Source of the DNA: Haloferax denitrificans ATCC 35960
GTDB lineage: Archaea; Halobacteriota; Halobacteria; Halobacteriales; Haloferacaceae
Reading direction: 5' to 3'
Length of the DNA stretch: 64,000 nucleotides
NCBI RefSeq assembly: GCF_000337795.1
Contig: NZ_AOLP01000018.1
Location: forward strand, 124,001-188,000
Of the stretch, positions 51,206 to 55,652 are shown piece by piece; the stretch's first letter is position 1, and every line of letters begins with the position of its first letter. Below the pieces are notes generated by a model. The model had not been told where the DNA came from. It saw nothing but the letters and a program-made list of their open reading frames with translations, and did no database searches. Position numbers and translations under genes: made by a program.

Positions 51206-52180
51206 TCAGAGGTCGAGTCCGCGAATCGAGACGCCGTCGCCCGCTTCGACGCGGCCGATGACGCGGCCGTCGGTCGCCTCGACCAGCGCCTCGGCGTTCG
51301 CCTCGGGGACGGCGGCGACGAAGCCGGTGCCCATGTTGAACGTCGTGTGCATCTCCTCGTCGGAGACGCCGCCGCGTTCCTGGACGAACTCGAACACCGG
51401 CTGGGGGTCGAACGCGTCGTCGACGACGTAGCGGAACTCGCCCATGCGTTCGAGGTTGGTCCAGCCGCCGCCGGTGACGTGGGCCGCGGCGTTGGTCTCG
51501 GCCGCTCGCAGGTCGTCCAGCAGGTAGGTGTAGAGTCGCGTCGGTTCGAGGAGCGCCTCGCCGACGGTGTCGTAGTCGTCGCCGTCCCACGCGTCGTCGT
51601 AGTCGCCGTCGGCCGTCGCGGCCTTGCGGGCGAGCGTGAGGCCGTTCGAGTGGATGCCCGACGACGGGAAGCCGACGAGCGCGTCGCCTTCCTCGGCCTC
51701 GCCGGGGAAGATGGCGTCTTTCCGCGACAGTCCCGCGCAGGTGCCGGCGAGGTCGAGGCCGTTGATGACCTCCGGCATGACGGCGGTTTCGCCGCCGACG
51801 AGTTCGATGTCGGCCTCCTCGGCACCCGCGGCGAGGCCCTGACCGACCTGCTCGGCGAACGTCTCGTCGGGCGCGTCGACCGCGAGGTAGTCCACGAACG
51901 CGACGGGCCGGACGCCGGCCGCGACGAGGTCGTTTGCGTTCATGGCGATGCAGTCGATGCCGACCGTCGAGTAGTCGCCGAGCGCCTCGGCGACGAGCAG
52001 TTTGGTGCCGACACCGTCCGTGGCGAGCCCGAGGTAGCGGTCGCCGATGTCGAGCAGGCCGGCGTAGTCGCCCGACCCGCCGCCGACCTGCGCGACGAGC
52101 GCCGCGGTCGCGGCCTCGCTCGCCTCGATGTCGACGCCCGCGTCGGCGTAGGTCATCCCGTCGGAGTCGTCGTTCGTCAT
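51206..52180 (-). CDS. purM: Phosphoribosylformylglycinamidine cyclo-ligase (AIR synthetase)
   Basis: PurM closes the imidazole ring in purine synthesis using ATP. The 324-residue protein has MTYADAGVDIEASEAATAAL, the nucleotide segment LGLATDGVGTKLLVAEAL, DCIAMNANDLVAAGVRPVAF (AIRS signature), LVGGETAVMPEVI, and the C-terminal HVTGGGWTNLERM and MHTTFNMGTGFVAAVP. Length is typical (about 330-345). A strong TATA box (TTTATATT) lies 23-30 nt before the ATG. It is not in a purine operon here; it stands alone upstream of the P450 gene on the same strand. Confidence 0.96.
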   Translation of the reverse strand: MTNDDSDGMTYADAGVDIEASEAATAALVAQVGGGSGDYAGLLDIGDRYLGLATDGVGTKLLVAEALGDYSTVGIDCIAMNANDLVAAGVRPVAFVDYLAVDAPDETFAEQVGQGLAAGAEEADIELVGGETAVMPEVINGLDLAGTCAGLSRKDAIFPGEAEEGDALVGFPSSGIHSNGLTLARKAATADGDYDDAWDGDDYDTVGEALLEPTRLYTYLLDDLRAAETNAAAHVTGGGWTNLERMGEFRYVVDDAFDPQPVFEFVQERGGVSDEEMHTTFNMGTGFVAAVPEANAEALVEATDGRVIGRVEAGDGVSIRGLDL

Positions 52181-52568: not shown

Positions 52569-52595
52569 TGGCCCCCGTCGTATGCAGAAGTGACG

Positions 52596-52832
52596 ATGTC
52601 CGGAATACCCTCCACGAACGACTCGGTCGCGCTCGACCTCGCATCGACCCTCGGCCGCCTCGCGTACGCCCCCATCGAAACCGTCGCGTTCTGGTCGGCA
52701 GTCGCGTTGCCCCTCGCGTACCTGCCCGTCCTCAGCGGCGGTCTGAGCGCCGGCGAAATCCCCCTCTTCGCCGGGCTCATCGCCCTCCACGCCGTCGCGC
52801 TCGTCCTCGGGCGCGACCACGGCCAGCAGTAA
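52596..52832 (+). CDS. Small membrane protein, unknown
   Basis: The 78-residue protein has two hydrophobic stretches (ETVAFWSAVALPLAYLPVL and GEIPLFAGLIALHAVALVLG) after a polar leader. The ATG at 52596 sits at the expected distance from a good TATA box; a GTG two codons earlier is less likely. No family is recognised. A long repeat-bearing non-coding region follows. Confidence 0.7.
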   Translation: MSGIPSTNDSVALDLASTLGRLAYAPIETVAFWSAVALPLAYLPVLSGGLSAGEIPLFAGLIALHAVALVLGRDHGQQ

Positions 52833-53352
52833 GCGCGGTCCCCGACGCGTACGACCAAACCCGGATTCGTCTCGGTTCCCCGCCGACGTCCCCTCCACAA
52901 AGCGCGCGTCAGCATCACCCCGCGATTGCGACCCGCTCGCTGGCCGGCCCCACCTGCCAACGGCCCCTCCCGAACACCGACCTCTGCCCAACCCCAACCC
53001 CGACCTCGGCCCAACACCAACCTCAGCCCAACTCCAACCTCAGCCCAACTCCAACCTCAGCTGACCTCGGCCCAACCCCGACCTCGCGTCCCGAACTGCA
53101 CACCACGGCCGCGACCTCCCCCCGAATCCCGACCTCCACGGCGACCGGTCCCCGCCGCACTCGTGCGGTCCCCTTCTCCCTCCACTCGCCCCTGTCGCGC
53201 CCCGAGTACCGCCTGTGCATTCTGGGCCGAGCCCTCCGAACCCTCGGAGTGCTCTTTGTCCCGCGTCTCGACCGTAGCGGTCGCTCGCGACTTCGAGAAC
53301 GGGACGAACCGGAAATCGAGACTGAGGGTCGTCAGAAACTCCGCCGGTCGGG
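52833..53352. other. Repeat-bearing convergent non-coding region
   Basis: These 520 bases between a plus-strand small membrane gene and the minus-strand M50 gene hold no credible gene. Open frames on both strands are Pro/Arg/Ser-rich and show no family patterns. The C-rich tandem repeat at 52987-53086 is the main structure. The last part (53200-53350) is ordinary GC-rich spacer. Confidence 0.6.
52987..53086. repeat. Degenerate C-rich tandem repeat, 17-base unit
   Basis: Units of the form CCCAACTCCAACCTCAG occur in a row: 53010-53026 (one base different), 53027-53043 and 53044-53060 (identical). Divergent copies flank them at 52987-53009 and 53071-53086. There are no spacers, so it is not a CRISPR array. 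Confidence 0.75.
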
Positions 53353-53976
53353 TCAGAACCCGACGAACAGGAACAGGCCGACCGTGAGGAGAATCGACAG
53401 GACGAGCACGCCGGCGAACACCGGCGTGCTCCACGACTTGACCGTCTTCCCGTCGAGCGAGCCGAACGGGAGCATGTTGAACGCCGCGAGGAAGGCGTTG
53501 ATGATGAGCCCGCGCGAGCCGACGAGCTGGATGACGTCGGAGCCGACGAGGACGCCGACGACGAGCACCGGCGCGAACGCGACGAGGAGAAGCAGGTTCG
53601 TCACCGGGCCGGCGAGGGCGATGAGGCCGTGTTCGCGCTCCGTGAGCACGCCGCGATGGTAGACCGCGCCCGGCGCGGCGAAGATGAACCCGACGAGCGC
53701 GCTCATGATGGCGATGGCGAGCATGCCGTAGTCGGCGCGGAACTCGGCGACCTGATTGAACCTGACGGCGACGACCTTGTGGGCGACCTCGTGGAGGAGA
53801 AAGCCCACGCCGGCGGTCAGGAGGCTCACGACGAGCGCGAGGCCGAACGACCCGCTCGTCAGCAGTTGGATGGTTCGATTGCCGCCGCCGGCGAAGAAGA
53901 TGGCGAAGGCGAGACCGAGCGCGACCCACGCGACGAGCAGGTCGCGGAGTTCGCGCGAGGAAAACGAGACGTTCAC
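53353..53976 (-). CDS. M50 site-2-protease-family membrane metalloprotease
   Basis: The 207-residue polytopic protein has the zinc motif LLHEVAHKVVAVRFN (HExxH, about residues 60-68) inside a membrane segment and the third-ligand motif NMLPFGSLDGKTV (N-x-x-P-x-x-x-LDG, about 163-175). This is the core of site-2 proteases, which cut transmembrane substrates. It is a minimal form without PDZ or CBS domains. The start is GTG 53976 (NVSFSSRELRDLLVAW). It overlaps the TraB stop by four bases (GTGA), so it is translated together with TraB. Substrate unknown. Confidence 0.87.
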   Translation of the reverse strand: MNVSFSSRELRDLLVAWVALGLAFAIFFAGGGNRTIQLLTSGSFGLALVVSLLTAGVGFLLHEVAHKVVAVRFNQVAEFRADYGMLAIAIMSALVGFIFAAPGAVYHRGVLTEREHGLIALAGPVTNLLLLVAFAPVLVVGVLVGSDVIQLVGSRGLIINAFLAAFNMLPFGSLDGKTVKSWSTPVFAGVLVLSILLTVGLFLFVGF

Positions 53977-55652
53977 GTCAGGGACCTCCAGATGAGGTCG
54001 GCGCTGTTGCGCGCGCCCTCCAGCATCAGGTTCGTCACGCCCGCGACGCCGCCGAGGTCGGAGGCGATGACGGGGATGACGTAGGTGACAAAGAGGAAGC
54101 TCGCGATGATGCTCCCGATGTTCGTCATTGCGACGACCATGATGAGCTTGAACAGCGGCACGTCGAGCATCTGGCCGACGAGTTCGACGATGGGCGTCTC
54201 CTCGTCGGAGAGGAGTTCGTTCAGTTTGCCGATATCGCCGACGTTGACGGGCGTGTGGCGGAGTTCGACGTAGCCGGTGAACCAGCCGGGCGCGAGAAGC
54301 GGGTTGATGGAGGTCATCCACGCGACGAGGCCGCCGACGGCGGCGGAGGTCCACCGCGCGCCGGCGACCTTGGCGAGCGCGGCGGCGAACACGCCGTTGA
54401 TGAGGAACCACGCGCCGAAGATGGTCAGGAGTCGTTCGTTGCCGACGCCGGCCATCGCGAGGAGGACGAAGAAGGCGACGAACACCGCGGTGACGCCGAA
54501 GCCGAGTAGTTTCCCCCACGGGAAGCCGTCCTTTTCGGCGACGCCGACGAGCGACTCCATCGGCGGGAGCGTCTCGGGGTGTTCGAGGTAGCGCTCGATG
54601 CCCTCGCGGTGGCCCGCGCCGACGACGGCGACGACGTGGCGGCCGGACTGCCGGAGCGCGACGAGCTGGTGGGCGATGTAGGCGTCGCGCTCGTCGATGA
54701 GCGCCTCCGCGCCGCCGGGGCTGAACCGGCGGAACTCCTCCATCATCGCCGAGACCACGTCGCCGTCGGTCAGCTCGGCCATGTCGAACTCCTCGTAGTC
54801 GGCGTCGCCCTCGACGGGCGCGAACAGGCCGAAGGCGTTCAGGACCGCGCCGACGGTGACGCCCACGACGACGCCCGCGAGGACGCCGATGACGAGACTG
54901 CCGACGATGGCGACGCCGAGGCTCCCGAGGACTCCCGAGACGAGGCCGGTGCCGAGTCCGAGGCCGAAGCCGGCGACGATACCGATTGCCGCGCCGCCGC
55001 CGAGGCCGGCGAGCACCGCGTCGTCGCCGTCGAGGGAGAACGAGGCGATAGTGTAGAGCAGGTACGCGGCCGCGCCCCCGAGGACCGCGGCGGTGGCGGT
55101 GCGCGTCAACAGGAGGTCGGTGACGCCGACCGCGCCCCCGAACAGGCCGACGAGCGGCCCGAGGACGACGCCGACGGCGATGCCGAACACCGCGCCGATG
55201 CCGCGGGCGTCGGCGACCCCGAACAGGAGGTCGCCGGCCATGCGCATCTTTTCGAGCGTGCCCATCCGCCGCCAGAAGCGCTGGATGGTCACCTGGATGT
55301 CGCGGTCGACGAGCGCCACGTCGAGGCCTTCCTCTTCGGCGGTCTCGACCGCCGCGAGCATGTCCGCGCCGGGTTTCACGTCGAACTTGTCGCCCATCCG
55401 CGACTGGACGTACGAGAGCATCCAGTAGGCGATAAACTGGAAGACGGTGTTGCCGCGAAGCAGGTCGCGCGCTTCGATGTCGTCGGGCGTTCCGCCCTTC
55501 AGCTGTCGGTAGCGCCCCTCGTCGAGTTCGACCGCGACGACGTCGGGACGCTCCTCTCTGACGGTCTCTTCGACCTCTCTGACGCTGTCGGCCGAGACGT
55601 GGGCCGTGCCGACGACGCGGACGTGACCCTCGCCGGGCGACGAATCGTTCAT
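53973..55652 (-). CDS. TraB-family membrane protein (TIKI/GumN-like)
   Basis: The 559-residue protein has an N-terminal TraB/PrgY domain: GHVRVVGTAHVSADSVREVE (GTAH motif), RPDVVAVELDEGRYRQLKG, FQFIAYWMLSYVQSRMG and LVDRDIQVTIQRFWR. A Gly-rich hydrophobic block (about residues 175-290) follows. The second TraB motif, RHVVAVVGAGHREGIERYL (GAGH), lies near residues 350-370, and more membrane helices run to the C-terminus. TraB relatives include PrgY, which limits peptide pheromones, and eukaryotic TIKI metalloproteases. Here it is coupled to an M50 protease by a GTGA overlap. ATG 55652 starts NDSSPGEGHVRV. It diverges from the glycerate kinase gene. Confidence 0.9.
   Translation of the reverse strand: MNDSSPGEGHVRVVGTAHVSADSVREVEETVREERPDVVAVELDEGRYRQLKGGTPDDIEARDLLRGNTVFQFIAYWMLSYVQSRMGDKFDVKPGADMLAAVETAEEEGLDVALVDRDIQVTIQRFWRRMGTLEKMRMAGDLLFGVADARGIGAVFGIAVGVVLGPLVGLFGGAVGVTDLLLTRTATAAVLGGAAAYLLYTIASFSLDGDDAVLAGLGGGAAIGIVAGFGLGLGTGLVSGVLGSLGVAIVGSLVIGVLAGVVVGVTVGAVLNAFGLFAPVEGDADYEEFDMAELTDGDVVSAMMEEFRRFSPGGAEALIDERDAYIAHQLVALRQSGRHVVAVVGAGHREGIERYLEHPETLPPMESLVGVAEKDGFPWGKLLGFGVTAVFVAFFVLLAMAGVGNERLLTIFGAWFLINGVFAAALAKVAGARWTSAAVGGLVAWMTSINPLLAPGWFTGYVELRHTPVNVGDIGKLNELLSDEETPIVELVGQMLDVPLFKLIMVVAMTNIGSIIASFLFVTYVIPVIASDLGGVAGVTNLMLEGARNSADLIWRSLT

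Follow-up and report, generated by a model that had tools for sequence, protein, structure and literature searches.

Do a TraB/PrgY-family gene and a short M50 peptidase gene that share four nucleotides in Haloferax denitrificans belong to one membrane system, or are they only neighbours? In the window, that is the whole 64,000-nt stretch of DNA analysed, both genes lie on the minus strand. The TraB gene (53973–55652) starts with ATG and encodes 559 aa, while the M50 gene (53353–53976) starts with GTG and encodes 207 aa. The TraB stop had been described as overlapping the M50 start in the form GTGA, and reading of the sequence confirmed this 4-nt overlap at 53973–53976 (minus strand), as well as a Shine-Dalgarno-like GGAGGT (53984–53989, minus strand) just upstream of the M50 start. 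The next same-strand gene downstream of M50 is purM (51206–52180, minus strand), about 1.17 kb away, and the divergent neighbours of the pair are a glycerate 2-kinase and an HVO_1552-like regulator. The gap between M50 and purM contains CCCAAC-rich short tandem repeats (52961–53061, 17-nt unit, 4.1 copies), and an 80-aa open frame with the look of a small membrane protein and no Pfam match is found at 52590–52832 on the plus strand. An anti-phage defence role for the pair was dropped, as PADLOC matched neither of the two proteins.

The TraB protein was assigned by its matches to the Pfam profile PF01963 (E=1.8e-31; 110.4 bits, cut-off 26.8) and to the NCBIfam profile TIGR00261 (E=2.5e-80; 270.2 bits, cut-off 178.35), both of which pass their cut-offs. 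Its N-terminal domain carries a GxxH motif (G15–H18), E42, D116–R117 and a second GxxH (G345–H348), and a C-terminal membrane domain spans approximately aa 379–530. G15–H18, E42 and G345–H348 are invariant in 37 class sequences, and the positions matching the GxxH motifs and the acidic residue are invariant in 16 sequences from the phylum; with catalytic residues held invariant so widely, the enzymatic activity is seemingly under selection. TraB would be a metal-dependent hydrolase with putative peptidase activity; the TraB superfamily includes non-peptidases too. A Gly-rich 4-helix membrane insertion lies within the catalytic domain (about aa 149–273, window 54834–55208), and it sets the size of the haloarchaeal proteins, which fall in the class into three discrete lengths (428–440, 490–523 and 551–608 aa). 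The shorter forms would carry an insertion with two helices or none; the four-helix form is the one modelled here, as a single chain and with moderate confidence (pLDDT 81). Since these helix numbers are even, both halves of the catalytic domain would stay on one side of the membrane.

The M50 protein carries H62-E63-x-x-H66 (HExxH) and N167-x-x-P170-x-x-x-L-D175-G, with no PDZ or CBS domain, and H62, E63, H66, N167, P170, L174, D175 and G176 are invariant in 37 relatives. It scores 19.1 bits against PF02163, under the cut-off of 27.2, yet homologous short M50 proteins adjoining TraB in other families reach 39–42.5 bits; the shortfall is a sensitivity limit of the Pfam model towards a short and divergent protein, and no defining residue is missing. 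The sole PDB match of the M50 family profile is the Methanocaldococcus jannaschii site-2 protease (3b4r, E=1e-4). The structure model (pLDDT 95) has as its top matches MjS2P (Z 8.8), SpoIVFB (Z 8.6) and RseP (Z 8.5), scores that alone are modest for a helical protein and are backed by the 3b4r sequence match. By motif, profile and modelled fold, the M50 protein is thus assigned as a site-2 protease.

The first-pass annotation took the two genes for one coupled membrane module, and the survey of their co-occurrence favours coupling, the pairing being conserved. In a class sample of 145 genomes (58 genera, 10 families), TraB and M50 were both found in every genome, and in 144 they are adjacent and co-directed with TraB first. 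The gap between their homologous parts equals 2 mod 3, as a 4-nt overlap would give, in 125 of these 144 genomes, and direct reading showed that the NTGA overlap itself is kept in 48 of 59 class loci. The TraB stop codon separates the genes in every one of the 59 loci inspected, hence no gene fusion is found among them. The exception is genome G021, where purM comes after M50 on one contig and a different contig bears TraB with no M50 after it, which looks like a real separation of the two genes. As a local control, the other neighbours were compared: purM is the best kept, following the pair on its strand in 39 of 57 class loci (within L063–L120) at distances of 39–1481 nt, and the remaining ones are kept in at most 27 of 58 loci, except for open reading frame clusters overlapping the three genes themselves. 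TraB–M50 adjacency outlasts all other neighbours in the class loci. A whole operon including purM was also considered and was dropped, as the distance varies and purM is not downstream in 18 of the 57 loci; purM is probably not part of the unit. The overlap between TraB and M50 is beyond chance, and it is its conservation that is notable, not the overlap alone.

In the phylum, TraB was found in 100 of 100 genomes sampled, and its locus was read in 80 non-class Halobacteriota genomes from 18 families. A site-2 protease adjoins TraB in 50 of these 80 genomes: a longer one, bearing two CBS domains, is its immediate upstream neighbour in 49, the short one its immediate downstream neighbour in 17, and the full array of CBS-protease, TraB and short protease is present in 16. 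Such three-gene arrays are seen in methanogens and their relatives (L126, L131, L136, L139, L140, L142, L146, L147, L192 and L199). Among 80 named loci, the CBS-protease precedes TraB in 41, e.g. in Methanococcoides, Methanothrix, Methanolobus and Methanoperedens, and the Methanomicrobiales and ANME-1 loci lack this arrangement. TraB is recurrently linked to this second, CBS-domain site-2 protease, and of an older three-gene array the class has seemingly retained half. Adjacency of TraB with a site-2 protease occurs in 11 of the 18 non-class families and none adjoins it in the other 7, thus the two partners need not share an operon. In Methanococcus maripaludis, where an M50 gene lies elsewhere, deletion of the TraB-like gene was viable and caused no transformation defect (PMC10133366).

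The pair would correspond to HVO_1554/HVO_1555 of Haloferax volcanii, the M50 protein being HVO_1555 at the same locus, with the HVO_1552-like gene adjoining; the number HVO_1554 for TraB would follow from gene order only. HVO_1555 was listed alone as an M50 protein with no extra domain, its TraB neighbour unmentioned, and it was detected in the proteome; the targets of haloarchaeal site-2 proteases were listed as unknown (PMC9263693). Moreover, HVO_1555 is induced by perchlorate (PMC12175516). In H. volcanii, 560 gene pairs lie within −8 to +10 nt of each other, so short overlaps are common; 45.2% of these pairs encode complex subunits compared to 5.6% of wider-spaced pairs (PMC10666635), which makes a complex of TraB and M50 plausible.

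On which side of the membrane would the two proteins act? TraB has no N-terminal signal peptide in its sequence. A K/R cluster precedes its first C-terminal membrane helix, with a mean of 3.5 K/R in the ten residues before that helix (alignment A3, mainly of methanogens), and K/R are likewise frequent in the charged loop preceding the last helix; the signal is weaker in haloarchaea. In the M50 protein, the helix bearing HExxH ends in K/R. From this distribution of charges, the TraB catalytic domain and the M50 active site are both predicted to face the cytosol.

The TraB hydrolase and the intramembrane protease probably work together, and two-step membrane proteolysis, as the first-pass annotation had it, is plausible. 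The reading that we tentatively prefer, by analogy with enterococcal pheromone processing, is that the pair forms a membrane proteolysis unit with translational coupling: the site-2 protease would cut, and TraB would hydrolyse or control the product. Close to the cytosolic face, the short site-2 protease may cut transmembrane segments, for example what is left of signal peptides or membrane anchors. TraB, as a membrane-anchored metal-dependent hydrolase with its catalytic domain towards the cytosol, would then remove, trim or gate the product, probably while bound to the protease or while present next to it at a fixed ratio; the physical complex, the order of action and the substrates are what we infer. 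Every class genome sampled has both genes, hence housekeeping or a part in envelope stress is a better fit than cell–cell signalling. Since Eep and PrgY act on one peptide, coupled processing of membrane peptides on the cytosolic side is favoured. It is a more speculative and rather unlikely extension that, in Halobacteriota, a physical complex of TraB with site-2 proteases is ancient and serves to dispose of remnants of membrane peptides on the cytosolic side, or to signal through them.

The main rival, distinctly less probable than coupled proteolysis, sees TraB as a regulator or scaffold whose membrane domain binds and gates the site-2 protease, with no second-step enzyme, in the way BofA and SpoIVFA bind and gate SpoIVFB. 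The conserved fixed-ratio coupling of the pair would suit such a role, as would the adjacency of TraB to two different site-2 proteases and the finding of a TraB protein as a subunit of Tetrahymena complex IV, but the catalytic residues of TraB are invariant phylum-wide, so that enzymatic activity is seemingly selected for. If instead the two genes were housekeeping membrane genes held in a conserved operon by shared ancestry and expression with no direct functional link, the frequent company of purM, the families in which TraB stands alone and the commonness of short overlaps would all be accounted for. Such a null explanation is improbable, given that the adjacency outlasts that of every other neighbour and keeps its reading-frame offset, and that in other parts of the phylum the site-2 protease beside TraB belongs to a different subfamily.

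Two signalling explanations remain to be weighed. Envelope signalling by regulated intramembrane proteolysis would have TraB make or control a site-1-like cut, after which the site-2 protease frees a transcription factor; site-2 proteases are common in such cascades (PMC10202637) and HVO_1555 is stress-induced. Nonetheless, no membrane-anchored regulator is conserved beside the pair in the class loci, and one may lie elsewhere. Moreover, site-1 cuts usually fall outside the cytosol, unlike the cytosolic side predicted for TraB, and we consider this explanation about as improbable as the null, or slightly more so. Secreted-peptide signalling, the version raised by the first-pass annotation, would let TraB degrade or trim peptides that the site-2 protease makes and the cell exports. 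Homology to PrgY, believed to be extracellular, speaks for it, yet the lack of a signal peptide and the cytosolic side predicted for both active sites run against it. In addition, the pair is universal and no conserved gene fit as a pheromone, receptor, inhibitor or exporter lies beside it in the class loci, which leaves this version very improbable.

In open-access full texts we found neither a published description of a TraB–site-2 protease pair nor a described role for archaeal TraB proteins, so the earlier statement that such a pathway is not described holds within open-access papers. With a universal coupled pair in the tractable H. volcanii, two families that were orphans become a single system open to testing. 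It is also suggestive of an evolutionary root for the relationship of Eep and PrgY: if the ancient complex were true, their pheromone control would have arisen when a partnership with a general housekeeping role was adapted on plasmids.

The enterococcal M50 protease Eep frees the pheromone cCF10, which PrgY, a TraB protein, is believed to break down (PMC10202637, PMC7117660), so that both families already meet on one peptide, a precedent for the archaeal pair that the first-pass annotation did not draw on. PrgY itself is believed to work extracellularly. The enterococcal plasmid TraB (L226:2456-3610) shows K/R-rich segments beside its membrane helices, and by the positive-inside rule its catalytic domain would lie in the cytosol, whereas the published model puts PrgY outside the cell. 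Archaeal TraB is co-linear with this member of the PrgY/TraB proteins of enterococcal pheromone plasmids from end to end, C-terminal membrane domain included (23–32% identity), and the plasmid TraB and archaeal TraB have GxxH, DRD and ERD motifs in common. In contrast to them, the archaeal gene is chromosomal, universal and adjoins a site-2 protease, with no pheromone genes nearby, and most haloarchaeal TraB proteins have the Gly-rich membrane insertion as an extra. Similarly, the M50 protein shares HExxH, NxxPxxxLDG and, by its model, the fold of Eep/RseP, MjS2P and SpoIVFB, whereas it has only 207 aa, lacks PDZ and CBS domains and its gene overlaps that of TraB. With the Eep and PrgY system of pheromone control we claim resemblance only, and not membership.
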